Assembly (NCBI GenBank): GCA_021432635.1
Contig: MU270023.1
Coordinates: forward strand, 186,001-250,000
Length of the DNA: 64,000 bases
Reading direction: 5' to 3'
From: Thozetella sp. PMI_491
Lineage: Eukaryota; Ascomycota; Sordariomycetes; Chaetosphaeriales; Chaetosphaeriaceae
The translations under genes and the position numbers were made by a program. The notes below the pieces were generated by a model, which was not told the origin of the DNA, did no database searches, and saw only the letters and a program-made list of their open reading frames with translations. This document shows, piece after piece, positions 35,659 to 58,018 of this stretch. How positions within the stretch are numbered: position 1 is the stretch's first letter; every line of letters begins with the position of its first letter.

Positions 35659-36731
35659 CTACAGGCCGTTTCCTTCGTCGTGGCCCTTGTGCGGGTTCTC
35701 AGCCCCGAAGTACTTGAAAAAGTCATCGGGTGCGAGGATCTCCTTTTGGCCCTTCGGCTTCCTGGTGACATTGTAATACACATCCATATCAATCGTGTTC
35801 TCGTAGCGCCAATCCGTAATCTTGTCGAACGCGACGCACTGGCGGTTGATCGACCTGGGACGTGTTAGCGCGGTCAGAAGTAGGATGGCTGGCGGAAACC
35901 TACATATCCGGGTAGGGCGTGTCCTGAGTCTCGACCCAGTGAAGAGTAATTAGGTTTAGGTTTCCGCTGCACTGGATTGCCTGTATCAGGATGTCCACAC
36001 AATGGTTGATGTGGATCTCGCGCAGGCCTGTCGAGTTATTGGCGTTGCCTAGTGGCTTGTGGTAATACTCGCCATACGCGATCTGCCGCAACGTGTTGAC
36101 GCAGTGCAGCTGGTGGTAAACATCAAAGATCGCTGCATATGCGTCTTCACCGAGGCCGTAGTATCGGTCCTCGAGCTTGACAGCAGTCTCGGGGTCTTTG
36201 CCCATGGCGCGGATCTGTGCCGCCGTCACTGGCAGGACCCTCGTGAGCTCCCACTCCTGCCACAGTTCGTCGGACTCCTTGTTCGGCATCTTGCGTCCGA
36301 TCCCAGGATATTTGGAAGGGAATAGTGTCCCGTTGATGATCTGATTGCTAGGGGAGAGATCCAACCGATCCATCACCGGAGCTAGCGAGACGTCAGTATT
36401 CGCAAGGTAAGATTTGTCACGGGATAGGCTGCATACTGTAGCTCTGGACATGGCGTAGCCTGGGGTTCAGCCGAATATGGTTGTCGTAAAACCACGTTCC
36501 AAAGAGTGTACACGAGATTATGAGGGCTACGAGGTTGAAGCCCGTGAGTGCAAGGAGGGTTGAACTCCTCGCGGGTTTGGCAGCCACTCTCGAAGTTCCT
36601 GAGATAAAGCCCTTGGCCTCATCGTCACCAGAATCTGATGCACTCGATGGCGATGACACTGGCGCATAGTCTGACCTCCACCGAGGCATAACGACAGCCA
36701 GCTTTCTCTTGAGTATGGAAATAGGTGCCAT
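35659..36731 (-). CDS. UstYa-family (DUF3328) oxidase of a RiPP-type cluster, three exons
   Basis: Exons 36731-36437, 36381-35904 and 35854-35659; 322 residues. The introns (56 and 49 bp) have GTATGC and GTAGGT donors, and phases match. Seen: a Ser-rich cytosolic N-terminus, one membrane helix at about 58-80, and the two signature motifs HQLHC (188-192) and HINHC (222-226), followed by LHWVETQDTPYPDM. Known: UstYa/UstYb-type DUF3328 proteins carry two HxxHC motifs and install oxidative cross-links or cyclisations in fungal RiPPs such as ustiloxin and asperipin, probably in the secretory pathway. It is divergent from a secreted repeat precursor 1.08 kb away, which makes a peptide-modifying role likely. 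Its stop lies only 70 bp from that of the convergent RT-like gene. A later in-frame ATG (codon 15) is possible. Confidence 0.93.
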
Positions 36732-37814
36732 GTTGAGATGCGAGGGCGCACAGGGCCTACCAGTGCGCAGCGTAACAACTGATGGCTACGGCTAACGAGA
36801 GGCGGTTTACATAGGAAGAATGGCAGTTAAGACTTCTTCGAGGAAAGGGAAGTACAGACAAGACGAGGCGCGGGGGCCGGGCAATTGTTTCTTGGCTGAA
36901 GGAATGCAGTCTACATGTTAAAGATGTACCTTCTGTACCTTACCCTGGCATCGCCGAGCCTTTAGCCCTTTATAGGGAGTCTCGCCACAATAGGCAATTC
37001 ACACGACTTTTTGCCAGCGGTTGGAGGGGCTGATCGATGTAACCCCGGAGCGCGACATGGCGGGCACTAGTCACGATCTAATCGATTGGATAGGCGAAGA
37101 ATGGCTCTAGGCGGCCGCCATTTGTGCAAGGGTCTCTTAAGAGCGTTACCAGGGCCCGGCGTGTCGTCGCCAGTCGGCGGACGGAGCAAGCGCGAGCGAA
37201 TGTGCGCTTTTGTCCGAATGCGGGAAGCCTATCACCGGCTCGCCTAAAACCTGCGGCTGCGCAGCAGGATTCATACTCGATGCGGCAGCTGCTGGTGGTA
37301 GGATGCTTGGGACTTTTATCGCGAAACCTATCCTTTGGAACACCTTCCGCATCGCGTATGGGGAGCAAGAGCAGGGAGCATTCGTAAGCGCCGTGGCAAA
37401 ACCTAAGAGGAAGGCCAAGTGGCTCGACGATCTCGAAGGTGGGTGGCATCAATACTAGTCGTCGGCCAAGCTCCAATTATGCTTGGCTAGGCAACACTGA
37501 CTAAGAATGCCGCTGCTGAGAAGGAACAGGGAGGGAGCACAACCAGCTCCACAGGTGCGAGGTTGGCAAAATAGCCAAACATCTCGGAGGCGAAGTACCC
37601 TTGTTTATGGGAATCGAGTGGGTAAGTAGACCAAAGAACCAAGCATGAGCCGGTATAGCTCCCCTGGCTCTGCGAGGCTCATAAGCCTGCCTTGTTCCCC
37701 GACTCTTTGCGCAAGTTGGAATCCAAGTCCACGAGTGCAGCTGTATCACCTTGCTACCTAGCCCGCGCCAGTTCGCCCCTTCGTCAGTTTGTGTCACAGT
37801 TTCACAAAGCCATC
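36732..37814. promoter_or_regulatory. Divergent promoter region of the RiPP-type pair
   Basis: The only non-coding DNA between the oxidase (minus) and the precursor (plus), so it should carry both promoters. CTTTATAGGGAG near 36968-36979 could act as a TATA element; this is uncertain. An 82-codon plus-strand frame at 37210-37458 has no ATG start but partly protein-like composition (ending KWLDDLEGGWHQY) and might be a gene remnant. Confidence 0.5.
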
Positions 37815-38347
37815 ATGCGTACCAATCTCTTCAGCGTGGCTCTGGTAGCCCTTCTCGCAGCTCCTTCCCTCGCTGCCCCTGTTGATGCCCAGGTGAGAGC
37901 ATCTGCTTTTCTTCATCATGAGTCTCCCGCTCTAATAGTCTCGCCTAGGCCGCCAAGGAGAAGAAGGCTGTTGACCCTCTGTACTCTGACGGTGATCTTG
38001 GATTTTACCCCCTGAGGGCCTTGGCTGTAAAGGAAAAGCAGAAGAAGGCCGTTGACCCTCTGTACTCGGATGGCGACCTTGGATTCTACCCCTTGAGGGC
38101 CCTTGCCGTGAAGGAGAAGGAGAAGAAGAAGAGGGCTGTCGACCCTCTGTACTCTGATGGAGACCTTGGGTTCTACCCTCTCAGGGCTCTGGCTGTGAAG
38201 GAGAAGGAGAAGAAGTCGGTCGAACCTCTTGCCGTCAAGGAGAAGGAGAAGAAGGCCGTTGACCCTCTGTACTCGAATGGCGACCTTGGATTCTACCCCT
38301 TGAGGGCTCTTGTCGTGAAGGAGAAGGAGAAGAAGCGTGAAGAATAA
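37815..38347 (+). CDS. Secreted tandem-repeat RiPP precursor (dikaritin/UstA-like)
   Basis: Exons 37815-37892 and 37949-38347 (56-bp intron, GTGAGA donor, CCTAG acceptor, phase 0); 158 residues. Residues 1-20 or so are a signal peptide (MRTNLFSVALVALLAAPSLAA). The rest is tandem repeats: four full units containing the core DPLYSDGDLGFYPL (residues 35-48, 62-75, 91-104, 131-144; the last has Asn for Asp) and one truncated unit (116-128) without the core. Units are separated by Lys-rich linkers (KEKEKK, with KR at 87-88) suited to kexin cleavage in the Golgi. Each core has two Tyr, the residue type often oxidised in this class. With a UstYa oxidase next door this fits a ribosomal peptide precursor whose cores are cut out, cross-linked and trimmed. 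The exact core ends are unknown. The alternative, a plain secreted repeat protein, is less likely. Confidence 0.9.
37967..38335 (+). repeat. Tandem coding repeats of the RiPP precursor
   Basis: Unit starts at 37967, 38048, 38135, 38216 (shortened, 39 bp) and 38255. Full units are 81-87 bp and nearly identical at DNA level (gac cct ctg tac tc), indicating recent duplication or gene-conversion-like homogenisation. The 87-bp spacing of unit 2 comes from an extra Lys-Arg pair. Confidence 0.92.
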
Positions 38348-50907: not shown

Positions 50908-53900
50908 TCAAGCCACCTGGACGAACTGCCCAATAGCAGGGACCCCATCAACAACTACATAAACGACGTACGGTCCGGGGGGCGCGACATTATTGGTCGG
51001 GGGCATGGTTACAGTGATAGTCTGCTTGGTAGCCCCGGCCTTGAATCCCGTGTTGTCTAGGAAAAGCATGCGGTGGCCCATGTGCAGAGAATGGGTAACG
51101 AATCCTCCATAGTAAAGGGAAACTTTGCAACCCTGCGCCGTGGCAGGGGCAGTGAAGGTGATAGTGAAGGTCGAAGACGTACCGACCGTCAGAGACTTGC
51201 TCGAAAGCACGACATCCGTTGGCCGAGTCACGTTGCCGGAGAGGTACGGGGGCGTGTAGGTCTCGACGCGGAATTCGGTCACATAGGGGTTCTGCGTCGT
51301 CGCCTGCAGCACTGGCTGCTCCACCGGGTTGCTGCCGGCAACCATGACTGTGCCGTCGAGGAGTAGGAGAGCCACAGAGTGGTACAAGCGCGGGATCGTG
51401 CTGGCAGCGCCAGTAGTCCACCGCTGCCCGAGAGTCTTGGCGGGATCATAGATCAGGGTCTCAAGGGTCGGGCTGGTGGCTTCGCCGAAGCCCTGAGCTC
51501 CCTGGTTGGCACCGTTCAGGAAAAGCACGGTACCGTCGGGGAGGAGGACGCCCTCGACCATGCATCGGCCCTCCGGCATAGCATCCATCTCCCAGGCTGG
51601 TGTAGCCGACTGCGGCTGCATGCGTCCGCACGAGGCGTCGGTGGGCGAGGTGATGTCCTGGTAAGAACCGCCTCCGCAGATGATGACGTCGGCAGCCCAG
51701 TTGTTGCTGCTGGAGAGCGGCAGCAGGACGGAGGTACCGGTATTGGGGTATGTGCGGTAATCACCAGCAAGCTCGGGCAAACTCTTGACGGTGGTGTTGG
51801 TTCCCACATTGAAGATTTCGCTCGACTTGGCCACGGAGACGAAGAGGTTGCCGTCCGACAGGAGGTGCATGAACGGGTACATGTAGTACGGCATGGACTT
51901 AGCAAGAATTGGCATGGGAACCGAAACGCCGCTCGAAACGCCCTGGGCGTTGAGGATCTCGTAAGTCGGGTTGTTGTTGGCCGGCACGTTGGGGTCGAGG
52001 CCGTTCAGACTGCCCGAGGCGACAAAAATGGTGCCATCTCCCATGATCTGGGCCGAAGCGTACCAACGAGCACTCGAGAGTTTGTTACCCGGCTCGCTCC
52101 AGTCCTGGCCGTTAAGGGTGGCGTCAGATGATGAGCGCTTCAAATATCTGATGGCAGTGAAGCCGTCTCCCACGGTGGGGTCGATGAAATCCAGGGGCGC
52201 GTTTCCGCCGAGCGAAACGAAGCGACCGTCGGCAAGGAAAATGCCGCCGGAGCAGAAGGCGTTGGTCTTGTACCCCAAGGCAACGACGGTGTTGTCCGCC
52301 GGGTTGTACTCGGATGAGTATGCGAGCTGGCCGTTGGTGAGATGAAGTTGCGTGTAATTCTCAACCTTGTCCAGGAACACGACGCGCCCGTTGGGCATGA
52401 GACCGGCGTGCATAGCAGGGACGCCAGACTGGCCTACGATCTTGAAGGAGCCAGGGTTGGCGTTTTGAGGTGCCGCCTTGGGGCCCGGAGCAGGAGTTAC
52501 GGCACCATTAGTGCAGTTACCGGACTGGCATCCGTCGCCGCAGTGCCCCGCAGTAGAGCCACAATAGCCGAACATTGAGCAGCAGTTGCCCTGCGGCCAG
52601 TTACCGCAGACAGTCCCGCCGTAGCTGGTTCCGCAGGTGCCGTCCGTGGTTACAGCCGTGGTCGGCTCGGTAGCGGCTGTGGAGGCCGCTGAGGGGCCCT
52701 TTGAGGACGATGGGGTGACAGGAGCAGCTGAAGATGATAAGCTTAGGCAGGGCCCAGACTGGCAGCCATCACCACAGTGCAGAACTGAGTTGCCGCAATA
52801 CCCGTAGGAACTGCAGCAGCTTCCCTGAGCCCAGTTCCCGCAGACAGTTCCGCCGTTTGCGGCGCCGCAGGTGCCGTCCTTAGTAACCGGGGCAGAAGAC
52901 TGCGCCGCGGAGACCGAAGATGCTGGAGTGGATGCTCCACCAGCCGAAGACGACGGGGCGGATGATGCAGCAGCCGAGGAGAATATGAGGCAAGGGCCGG
53001 ACTGACATCCATCACCGCAGTGCACATCAGTGTTTCCGCTAGATCTTGGTGTCAGCAAAGGCTCCTCAAAATCAACGTGAAAGGGAAAGCAAAAAACTTA
53101 CCACCAGCCATATGAGCTGCAGCACGAACCCTGAGCCCAGTTTCCGCAGATGGTTCCACCGTTCGCCGCTCCGCAGGTACCATCTGTAGTCACCTTCACG
53201 GATGGCGAGGATACAGGAGCAGAAGATGCAACTGAAGAGGCAGGCGGTGATACGGCAGAAGATGAGGCAACGACCGAGATAAACGTCGATGGCGTCGAGG
53301 AAACCTGGAGCGTCTTTGCTGGCTGTACGCTGCTCGAGGGAGAAGCAGCGGGGTTCTGAGGCAGCGAAGAAGACGAAGCCGCCTTGGAAGTAGAGCTCGA
53401 CGAACTAGAAACCGGCTTCACCGGCTGCGCGGTGCTTGAGGAAGGTGTGGCCGGCTTCAGGGTGGAGCTTGAGGAGGTCGACACTTGCAGTGTCTTAGCC
53501 GGTTGAACCGTGCTGCTAGAAGTTGTAGCTAGCTTCGAAGATGTCGTTGGGACAGGATCGCAGCCGCTGATGCATCCTTTCGCAACCGAACAGTAGGACG
53601 GAGACCGCCCACACCAGCTGCGAGAATTCTTTAGTAAATAGCCTGGTGGGAGTTATAGACGCATTAACATACCCATCACCGCTGCAGCAACCACCGAAGA
53701 GCCCCTTAGGGTTGCATTTGATGCCTCCAAATTTAGGCCCGCATCGCAGGACGAGGCTGCTGAGCAAGTCTCCCAAGAGATCTCGCTTCTCCACGGCACT
53801 GACCCTGTTCGTAGATGGGACGAAGTCTGCGTGACACGTCGTGCCTACGCACGTCTGTCCCTTCAGACAGCCAGTGTAAGCCTTGTTCTCAATGCAGCTC

Positions 53901-55169: not shown

Positions 55170-58018
55170 TCACGCTCCATACCAGCCACCGCCTTCGTAG
55201 CACTTGGTCATGGACCTGTAGTCGGTGGAGACGGAATACTGCGTTTGTCTATTGGAGCCACGGTCAGCATCAGAGGAGAGCGGAGAAGAATAGGCCGACT
55301 TACCGAACCCACACCGTCTCATACGTGTTGTAAGTCACGTAGTCTACATGGTACTCGGTATGCGGAGGCCCTTGGTAGTACAAGGTCACTGTAGAATCCG
55401 CCTCGCAGACCGTTTGATCAGGCGGGTAGCTAGCACGGGATATTAGTCTAACCTAACAGCACGCTCGAGCAGGGGGGCATCATACTATGTAGATGTGACA
55501 TCGTAGTAGTTTGTCTCCGTGACAGTGTCGGCCGGTGCCGTCTCGTAGACGGTACTGGTGACTGTGTAGGTCGTTTCCGTGATGGTGCTTGTAACATCCG
55601 CGAGCCTAGCAGCCGCACGTCGAGCTAGTGGAGTATCTTGTTAGCGAATATATTGCAAGTCAGGAATGGGAGTAGCTCACCGATTTCGACCGTCACTTGA
55701 GGCTCGCCGCTATCGACGGTGATCATAGGAGCAGGAGTTGGTCTGCCTCCTCGGCCGCCACCGCCGCTGCTACCACCACCGCCACCGCCGCCGCCGCCGC
55801 CGCCGCCTCCCCGCGAACCTCCATTATTACCACCACCGTTGTTGCCTCCGCTTTGTCGCGGCGGCTCAGAGCTTCGTGGTGGCTGCTGAGTTGTTCTTGG
55901 TGGCTCCTGGGTCGGCTGCCTGGTTGGTTGTTGTGTAGGTTGCCTAGTTGGCTGTTGTGAGGTAGGCTGCCGAGTAGGTTCCCGGGTTGGCTGTTGCGTT
56001 GGCTGTCTTGTCGGCTCCTGTGTAGGTTGCCTAGTTGGCTGAGTGGTAGGTTGTCGAGTTGGCTCTCGAGTTGGCTGTTGAGTCGGTTGCTGAGTTGGCT
56101 GAGTGGTGGGTTGTCTGGTAGGCTCCCGTGTTGGGTCGTTAGGTCGAGTAGTCGGCCGAGTCAGAGTTGTAAACGTAGTTGGGTTTTCTGTCGGGCGCGG
56201 AATGGTGGTGATCCTTGTCGTGACGGTCGGAGGGTCAGTATCCCGCGGCCGGGTGGTGATCCTTGTGGTCGTCGGAGGATCTGTGTCACGCGGGCGAGTA
56301 GTGCCTGGCAGCGTTGTAATCCTCGTGGTGATAGTGGGAGGATCTGTGTCACGCGGGCGAGTGGTGATCCTTGTCGACGTCGGCGGCTCCGTGTCATGCG
56401 GCCGAGTAGTGCCTGGCAGCGTGGTGATCCTGGTGGTTATAGTCGGAGGATCGGTGTCGCGTGGCCGAGTAGTGATCCTTGTCGACGTCGGCGGCTCCGT
56501 GTCATGCGGCCGGGTAGTGCCTGGCAGCGTGGTGATCCTGGTGGTTATTGTCGGAGGATCGGTGTCGCGTGGCCGAGTAGTGATCCTTGTCGATGTCGGC
56601 GGCTCTGTGTCGTGCGGCCAGGTGGTACCGGGTAAGGTGGTGATCCTCGTTGTGATTGTCGGTGGGTCAGTGTCGTGGGGACGAGTGGTTCCAGGGAGCG
56701 TGGTTATCTTCGTGGTGACTGTCGGGGGAGGCGTGTCGTGTGGCCGAGTGGTACCAGGCAATGTAGTTATCTTCGTGGTGACAGTGGGAGGCTGTGTATC
56801 GTGCGGACGCGTGGTGTCGGGCAGCGTGGTCGTCCTTGTAGTTATTGTTGGCGGGCGCGTGTCATGCGGCCGAGTGGTCCCGGGCAAGGTGGTTATTCCT
56901 GTGCTCACAGTGGGCGTGGGCCGTGTCCACGTTGTGAGCGTGGTGGTACGAGTGCGGACTCGGGTAGTCGTCGTCGTCGGGAGCTGGGTCCAGCTCCAAG
57001 AGCCGCTAGTGAACCAGGGCCGACTGCAGTGGTCTCCGTCACGGTCGCGCACGCAGCTAACCGTTGCGGGTCGGGATGTCGGTGGCCCGTCTGCAGTCGG
57101 GGTGGGCCAGTGGCAATAAGCTTGGTTGTAGACGGTGGTCTGGTAGTAGTTTGTCAGGACCCCGTTGGTCTGCCATCGCTGTATGGTGTTCCATAAAGTG
57201 GTTGTGGGCCCCTGCAGGTACGAGTAGAATGTCTGAGTGGGCACGTCACAGTCGTCCGTAACCGTATATGGCTCCCCAACAACCACGTCCGTTGCGACAA
57301 TTTGCGAGATCACGGCTGCATACTCGTTAGTGCCCGAAGGTGGGATATGGTTGGACCTTCTTACTAGAGGGCTGAACTGCAGTTGTAACCCCAACGAAAA
57401 CAGTTGGAGTTGCCTGTAGCCTGCTTTAGTATATATCTGCTTGCATGTCCTGAAGAACAAATCTCACCGTCACTACAACCGTGTTGGGGCTGCCACCGGA
57501 AGTAATGCGGAAGCTCCGCTGGACCACGAAGTCAAACCCCGTGGCCTGGATTACGACATTCCATGTTCCCGATGCCATCTGGGAGTACATGATATTGCTA
57601 GTTCTCGTCAGTCACAAGTCGGGAACCCGGGAACAAGCCCAAGAAGAGAGTGCGAACCATTCTGACACCTGTTCGGTGTCCGCAGGCTGAGAGGTAATGG
57701 TGGTACATGCGAAGTCGTTCCCGTTCGGGTCGACTAACACCGGAATCACATCGCTATCCTGGCAACCTATTCAGACTGTCAGTGAGCGCGGTCAGGGAGC
57801 TTGAGACGGCCTAACACCCTACCTTCGAAGACTGACGTAAAGGTGAAATTAGTATTGGCAGTTCCGTCGATGAGGTATGATCCGCCGTTGGTGTAGTCTA
57901 TGCCCGTGCAGTAGCACTCGCTGGGGCTGGTGGACGGCTGCTGGTCCTGCTGTGCCAGGGCAGGCACAGCAAAGTTGGAGGCGGCGAGCGCCAGCAATAG
58001 CCCGGTCAGAGAAACCAT
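55170..58018 (-). CDS. Secreted Pro/Thr-rich repeat protein, seven exons
   Basis: Exons 58018-57823, 57766-57667, 57597-57468, 57376-55681, 55624-55486, 55429-55304 and 55248-55170; 821 residues with every phase consistent. One donor (57666, GTCAGA) is weaker and was chosen to keep the frame. A signal peptide (about 1-22, MVSLTGLLLALAAS) is followed by an N-terminal domain with Cys (ECYCTG, GCQDSD) and Trp-rich beta-like stretches. Residues about 295-640 are low-complexity repeats: 20-residue units (TTRITTLPGTTRPHDT) arranged in 36-residue higher-order copies, then short QPTR-type repeats, then a Gly-rich run. The C-terminal part (YTVTSTVYETAPADTV, YHVDYVTYNTYETVW) is conserved-looking and ends with few cysteines. 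Heavy O-mannosylation of Thr is likely. Probably a wall or surface protein; no GPI signal is seen. Function unknown. Confidence 0.83.
55905..56130 (-). repeat. Short Gln-Pro-Thr coding repeats
   Basis: 12-bp-scale repeats encoding QPTR/QPTQ-type tetrapeptides inside exon 4 of the repeat protein. They also create a spurious long frame on the plus strand. Confidence 0.85.
56373..56696 (-). repeat. 108-bp higher-order tandem repeat (three copies)
   Basis: The plus-strand block starting GTCGACGTCGGCGGCTC recurs at 56373, 56481 and 56589, exactly 108 bp (36 codons) apart, with few differences. Diverged 60-bp (20-codon) units flank it. This suggests recent unequal exchange within the array. Confidence 0.9.

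Follow-up and report, generated by a model that had tools for sequence, protein, structure and literature searches.

Fungal ribosomally synthesised and post-translationally modified peptides (RiPPs) of the ustiloxin, asperipin-2a and phomopsin pathways depend on DUF3328 (UstYa) proteins, which are indispensable for the cyclisation of their cores (PMC7329392). The ustiloxin and phomopsin systems combine two and five DUF3328 proteins, respectively, with a tyrosinase and a YxI core, whereas for asperipin-2a from Aspergillus a single DUF3328 protein goes with a repeat precursor of the Kex2 type whose core contains Tyr (PMC7329392), the oxidase being the product of a single ustY homologue (PMC12048977). 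In Venturia inaequalis, nine dikaritin clusters have been recognised from a DUF3328 gene near the gene of a precursor that has a signal peptide and repeats, each 10 residues or longer, with kexin sites between them (PMC9632046), criteria that match the locus described here. That locus lies in a window of 64 kb from Thozetella sp. PMI_491 (Sordariomycetes, Chaetosphaeriales; G000:C9:186001-250000), where a UstYa/DUF3328 oxidase gene and a repeat-precursor gene stand head to head, both at the positions where an earlier sequence-only reading had placed them. We assign a probability of about 0.72 to the interpretation of these two genes as a minimal RiPP locus that resembles asperipin in having one oxidase, depends on UstYa, is processed by Kex2 and makes peptides with oxidised cores, most likely through a Tyr cross-link.

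The oxidase gene (minus strand; exons 36731-36437, 36381-35904 and 35854-35659) encodes 322 residues, with two GT...AG introns in a splice model picked by eye from several possible ones. Residues 53-277 match PF11807 (UstYa) with an E-value of 7.8e-47 and 160.4 bits, against a curated cut-off of 25, and HQLHC at residue 188 and HINHC at residue 222 make up the HxxHC(x)nHxxHC pattern. The proposal that this is a true DUF3328 protein with two HxxHC motifs is thus confirmed by profile and by motif. Hydropathy peaks at about residues 59-77, a single hydrophobic stretch and candidate membrane helix. Homologs are numerous, 142 of 938 candidates reaching E ≤ 1e-20; of the full-length proteins among the 120 matches listed, the top one has 53% identity and covers 92% of the query, shorter matches rise to 64% with 53% covered, and the hosts include many fungi that we take to be Dothideomycetes and Sordariomycetes, with one presumed Leotiomycete. 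Across 45 aligned homologs (focal protein excluded), motif 1 is invariant in both of its His and in its Cys, and motif 2 in its second His and its Cys, while the first His of motif 2 is at least 90% conserved. At E ≤ 1, no solved structure matches the sequence of the oxidase, and NCBIfam, which is built for bacteria and archaea, gave no match.

The precursor gene diverges from the oxidase gene, as had been proposed, with 1083 bp from ATG to ATG (36732..37814). This is the adjacency asked of dikaritin loci, and the interval is a possible shared promoter. Exon 1 (37815-37892, plus strand) encodes the signal-peptide-like MRTNLFSVALVALLAAPSLAAPVDAQ; a phase-0 intron of 56 nt (37893-37948, plus strand, GTGAGA...CCTAG) separates it from the repeats; and exon 2 (37949-38347, plus strand) encodes four AVDPLYS(D/N)GDLGFYPLRAL(A/V)VKEK units with KK or KR between them. 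The 158-residue product, strongly hydrophobic at its N-terminus, has the sequence features of a Kex2-processed protein with a signal-peptide-like start and tandem repeats. Three copies of the core read DPLYSDGDLGFYPL and the fourth reads DPLYSNGDLGFYPL, each holding two Tyr. The conserved unit, AVDPLYSDGDLGFYPLRALAVKEK, spans 24 residues, unit 4 having N in place of D and V in place of A, and a fifth unit between units 3 and 4, SVEPLAVKEKEKK, keeps the flanks and has lost the core. Umemura's definition of Kex2-processed repeat proteins (KEPs) asks for a signal peptide and at least three tandem repeats of at least eight residues between KR, KK, RK or RR, and the four units and their dibasic sites agree with its repeat part, the repeats being counted here rather than by Umemura's program. 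The sequence-only description of a secreted protein with four copies of a 14-residue core and Lys-rich, kexin-type spacers accordingly stands as to gene model, repeats and dibasic sites throughout, but has to be amended in that the fourth copy is a variant, a fifth unit is core-less, the conserved unit is longer than 14 residues, and KR precedes one core whereas KK precedes three.

The repeats carry a clear signature of selection. Units 1-3 encode the same protein sequence and differ pairwise by 12, 12 and 11 synonymous changes and no nonsynonymous change; with about 18 synonymous and 54 nonsynonymous sites per unit pair, the contrast of 12/18 with 0/54 gives a Fisher p of 1.2e-9, sites being treated as independent. 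The whole 24-residue unit is therefore under strong purifying selection, and the repeats are not due to chance. Units 2 and 4 are near-copies (one synonymous and two nonsynonymous differences), and the pairs 1-4 and 3-4 differ at 11 and 9 synonymous and at 4 and 3 nonsynonymous positions. Because the selected stretch exceeds the 14-residue core, the mature peptide cannot be read from conservation alone; the computed [M+H]+ values of unmodified candidates are 2252.160 (AVDPLYSDGDLGFYPLRALAV), 1869.974 (LYSDGDLGFYPLRALAV), 1515.748 (LYSDGDLGFYPLR) and 1359.647 (LYSDGDLGFYPL).

The NCBI model of this gene, P0001 (GQ53DRAFT_760742), has 273 residues and is identical across all 158 residues of the precursor; the 115 extra residues upstream are probably an over-extension from a wrong start, because the signal peptide would be buried by them. 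Pfam matches of the precursor (DUF6373 at 26.2 bits against a cut-off of 25, and two below cut-off) were rejected as compositional, being short and with no stretch significant alone. A repeat detector flagged 10 of the 849 open reading frames (ORFs) in the window: the focal ORF with two frames antisense to it, six that lie within a Pro/Thr-rich ORF (55628-57463) or antisense to that one, and a Ser-rich ORF (53101-53652). Three or more dibasic pairs occur in the focal ORF and in just two other flagged frames, both overlapping the Pro/Thr-rich ORF.

In the pathway that we propose, the precursor would enter the secretory pathway via its signal peptide, and the UstYa protein would be anchored by its one N-terminal helix with the two-HxxHC domain facing the lumen. 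There its predicted binuclear copper centre may oxidise the repeated cores, and Kex2, for which the genome's one P_proprotein match (on contig C4) is the candidate, would act with trimming peptidases to free a peptide around [DP]-LYSDGDLGFYPL-[RALAV], in at most four copies. The DUF3328 protein CctR is membrane-anchored, dimeric, and copper- and O2-dependent; it holds copper at a binuclear site made by its two HxxHC motifs, and a lumenal orientation has been proposed for its catalytic domain (PMC12435403). By analogy with CctR, the focal oxidase would meet its precursor within the secretory pathway. The likeliest modification would be an oxidative cross-link through one or both conserved Tyr. 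Such a link is our first choice for LYSDGDLGFYPL, with hydroxylation as its main rival, because DUF3328 proteins cyclise known cores, asperipin-2a has a single DUF3328 protein, and Tyr is present in 65.6% of the repeated sequences of DUF3328-linked KEPs versus 38.2% otherwise (PMC7329392). In this scheme the topology, the copper centre, the order of the steps, the cleavage points, the chemistry and the biological role are all inferred.

In a database of 5.8 billion proteins (about 8000 candidates scored), the focal core was found in one protein besides itself, P0002, a metagenome fragment of 126 residues from a 983-base ENA contig. Its last two units, EPLYVDPENGLYPLRALII, match the focal unit at 14 of 22 positions (.PLY.D...G.YPLRAL..KEK), where the string compared is the last unit and the middle unit has A for E in KEK; its first unit matches at 16 of 22. 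P0002 preserves both Tyr and the YPLRAL tail (PLYxDxxxGxYPLRAL), and KR ends each of its three units. A profile built from the focal precursor and P0002 found no further protein at E ≤ 10 among 7999 candidates scored. The description of the core as unfamiliar is borne out, since six strings taken from it do not occur in any of 5.39 million open-access papers searched, subscription papers and preprints lying outside the scope of that search. Among the matches listed, open literature on Thozetella and genomes does not name 'PMI 491', and that on RiPP, DUF3328, Kex2 or UstYa does not mention Thozetella. What the locus adds is a two-Tyr core, PLYxDxxxGxYPLRAL, with strings absent from the open-access papers searched and one distant relative in the database searches.

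The nearer model is asperipin-2a, because the ustiloxin and phomopsin pathways need a tyrosinase and asperipin-2a has one DUF3328 protein (PMC7329392). The pair shares with ustiloxin and phomopsin a signal peptide, tandem repeats, dibasic sites and a UstYa oxidase, but it has one UstYa protein and no YxI in its core, and the window holds none of the 80 tyrosinase (PF00264) matches of the genome, the only ones on contig C9 lying about 686 kb beyond the window end. The earlier likening of the locus to dikaritin pathways is thereby narrowed, the single-oxidase comparison being closer than that with the tyrosinase-bearing pathways. None of the seven S41 peptidase (PF03572) matches of the genome falls within the window either; S41 is said to be the family of the cluster peptidase in systems of the ustiloxin and phomopsin type. 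From asperipin-2a the pair differs in its core and in its unit of 24 conserved residues, against typically 8, and no transporter or reductase gene was found beside it, both of which the asperipin locus reportedly contains.

Pfam scans covered 38 window proteins (the two spliced models, 35 of the window's 138 ORFs that reach 120 residues, and one ORF below that length) and found among them no methyltransferase, tyrosinase, P450 or peptidase; the sole transporter there is an MFS protein at 1383-2546, 33 kb from the pair. The earlier statement that no partner genes are clustered here is on firm ground for tyrosinase and S41 peptidase but less so for other partners, because ORF scans can miss intron-broken genes. 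The remaining Pfam matches were to a Fungal_trans_2 regulator, ankyrin repeats, SH3, a U1 zinc finger, LUC7, a PT repeat and a nucleoside deoxyribosyltransferase-like protein; RING/IBR, a Zn-cluster regulator and DUF7730 came up below threshold. At 50911-53097 (minus strand), about 12.6 kb from the pair, lies a gene for a glyoxal/galactose-oxidase-like copper radical oxidase with chitin-binding domains, probably unrelated to it. Rfam recognised no RNA family in the window.

Pairs of this sort are common, since a DUF3328 gene ranks among the 15 nearest genes of 22% of 7878 KEPs (PMC7329392), and the Thozetella genome has several. With 150 of 203 candidates scored, the genome contains at least 149 exon-level matches to PF11807, which, together with one from a paralog search, were merged into 126 groups (not a gene count). 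The surroundings examined total 270,140 unique bases including the window; 24 of the 126 groups have at least 3 kb on both sides, and shorter stretches were covered at others. Repeat detectors were run on these loci and their output was read by eye, antisense and shifted frames being dropped. Eight tandem-repeat ORFs near UstYa matches emerged from these surroundings, the focal one and seven others, six of the seven carrying dibasic sites and six of the eight, focal included, being divergent from the nearest UstYa match. Proximity to a UstYa gene is a matter of design, because the search was centred on UstYa genes and the window is the sole control region; the informative point is the number of repeat ORFs in so little DNA, compared with the mean of 5.25 KEPs that a different detector gave for an ascomycete strain (PMC7329392). 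The focal pair is of a known pathway kind, with a new core and in an unusually rich genomic setting.

The seven other ORFs are diverse, and spliced models with a signal peptide were built only for those on contigs C15 and C84. The C15 ORF (loci L012/L039) has repeats EPQYTSPNALRLKEKEKR and EPAEYTFSTLKIIGKDGAEVEKR, and the C84 ORF (locus L015) has repeats EPGTYGVDTFAAIKR. On C63 the repeat is LPQVYGAHQLKTAEDDFKVK, with unit ends of K-(P/A/R)-R that are mostly not dibasic, in an ORF cut by the locus end. Contig C2 has two: GIDYIKEGKRA at 1.597 Mb, and WSDDFGAADGPASGYGQDKKR, interrupted by a run of N, at 1.477 Mb; at L029:3160-3705 (G000:C2, minus strand), about fourteen units of the (A)GIDYIKEGKR type adjoin a UstYa gene. 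The C3 ORF repeats DVSVNTPGDRTGIYWGKVDSEKR. The C5 ORF, of 50 residues, repeats YCGEDELKKR, a Tyr-Cys core, and six UstYa match groups surround it within 13 kb (G000:C5:300371-313087, L033-L036), which makes this locus a multi-oxidase cluster, not a two-gene pair. UstYa matches are also dense at G000:C36:596800-610866 and 630011-657821, on a single contig.

Several observations weigh against the interpretation of the focal pair as an asperipin-like RiPP locus. Three of its four cores follow KK, which is a poorer Kex2 site than KR. Although 11 of the 24 well-covered UstYa groups (focal included) have a repeat ORF within 5 kb, several sharing one, the other 13 have none, and no tandem-repeat precursor was found in the flanks examined of the close paralogs on C20, C76 and C88; a neighbouring precursor is therefore not universal. 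A quick tree was made from 123 rows, 11 of them Thozetella oxidases and 112 homologs, omitting the C15 and C88 duplicates and six homologs shorter than 205 residues; in it the focal oxidase forms a long branch of its own within a weakly supported group. The Thozetella rows of that tree need 6 label changes, at least 3 of them forced by starred branches, against a mean of 10.7 under label shuffling, in which 0 of 500 shuffles came as low; these oxidases are thus not shown as one recent group, yet they cluster beyond shuffled labels. The DUF3328 family, moreover, is tied to hydroxylation and halogenation besides macrocyclisation (PMC12435403), so that a Tyr cross-link, though likely, is not a necessary outcome. 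The same breadth of chemistry, together with the fact that CctR is itself a C-H hydroxylase (PMC12435403), bears on the idea that the focal enzyme hydroxylates or otherwise oxidises its substrate without closing a ring and so yields a linear oxidised product. We consider this unlikely, if worth keeping in view: the higher share of Tyr in DUF3328-linked repeats fits cross-links (PMC7329392), and P0002 retains both Tyr.

Nor do we think it probable that the precursor releases plain linear secreted peptides of the pheromone or effector type and that the UstYa gene is a bystander. Lys-rich spacers and a signal peptide would be enough for a linear peptide, and 78% of all KEPs have no DUF3328 gene among their 15 nearest genes (PMC7329392); against this, UstYa match groups and the 3 kb around them account for only about 1% of the genome, the two genes run divergently, and the genome contains comparable pairs at other places. 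A pheromone was considered and rejected, because by eye the precursor shows no core of the alpha-pheromone type, as we take that motif to be, and because pheromone KEPs almost never have DUF3328 neighbours. KEPs annotated as mating factors or pheromones have no DUF3328 neighbours bar three exceptions (PMC7329392). A further reading, in which the repeats belong to an uncut secreted protein with a structural role or in decay, would accommodate the core-less unit, the KK at three of four sites and the differing NCBI model P0001; it is hard to reconcile with the many synonymous and zero amino-acid changes among units 1-3 and with the KR at all unit ends of the related P0002, and we regard it as very improbable.

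Returning to the asperipin-like RiPP interpretation, two other pairs of the genome can be compared with the focal one in detail. The closest paralog of the oxidase is that on C15 (56% identical), and the C84 oxidase is 50% identical. Both pairs resemble the focal pair in being divergent, with a signal-peptide exon, a short intron (phase 0 in C15) and repeats; exon 1 ends in APVEQ in C15 and in APVDAQ in the focal precursor, the phase-0 intron coming next in both. These two precursors match each other with an E-value of 6e-6 in a single pairwise comparison, in part through their Lys/Glu-rich framing, and share an L-x-(V/L)-KEKEK tail, whereas C84 has no KEKEK tail. The cores differ from the focal one (EPQYTSPNALRL, likewise with Tyr, in C15, and EPGTYGVDTFAAIK in C84), EP precedes the core in C15 and C84 where the focal precursor has DP, and their cleavage sites are mostly KR where the focal sites are mostly KK. 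Compared in all six pairs, the four EPQYTSPNALRLKE units of C15 are free of nonsynonymous differences and have at most three synonymous ones; the C84 units differ at positions of both kinds. A search for the pattern KEKREP gave three sites, every one inside the C15 precursor, so this exact framing is not widespread. Glu-Pro follows every KR in the C15 precursor and comes after KR at most C84 units, and in the focal precursor and P0002 Asp/Glu-Pro stands at least two residues past the basic site; trimming of the units by a dipeptidyl peptidase is a speculative thought. Among related sequences, G000:C18:637634-638011 is 48% identical to the C84 precursor (E = 9e-6) and possibly, from its sequence, an orphan sister of it, with the nearest UstYa match some 33 kb away. 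The C88 oxidase (L016) has EINHC as its second motif, the first His being lost, and the ORF upstream of it looks HET-like by eye.

From these comparisons we draw, tentatively and as something we doubt more than we believe, the picture of a Thozetella cassette family, in which a fixed framing of [DE]P and an L-x-(V/L)-KEKEK follower would surround a swapped core, each precursor having its own long-diverged UstYa protein; recognition would lie in the framing, and two genes plus housekeeping proteases would be enough. So far, the focal and C15 precursors show this framing in full, and P0002 shows it with a shorter follower. If this picture is true, the pairs would form a natural test set for substrate recognition by UstYa proteins, and they would also test whether an oxidase and a precursor alone yield the product.

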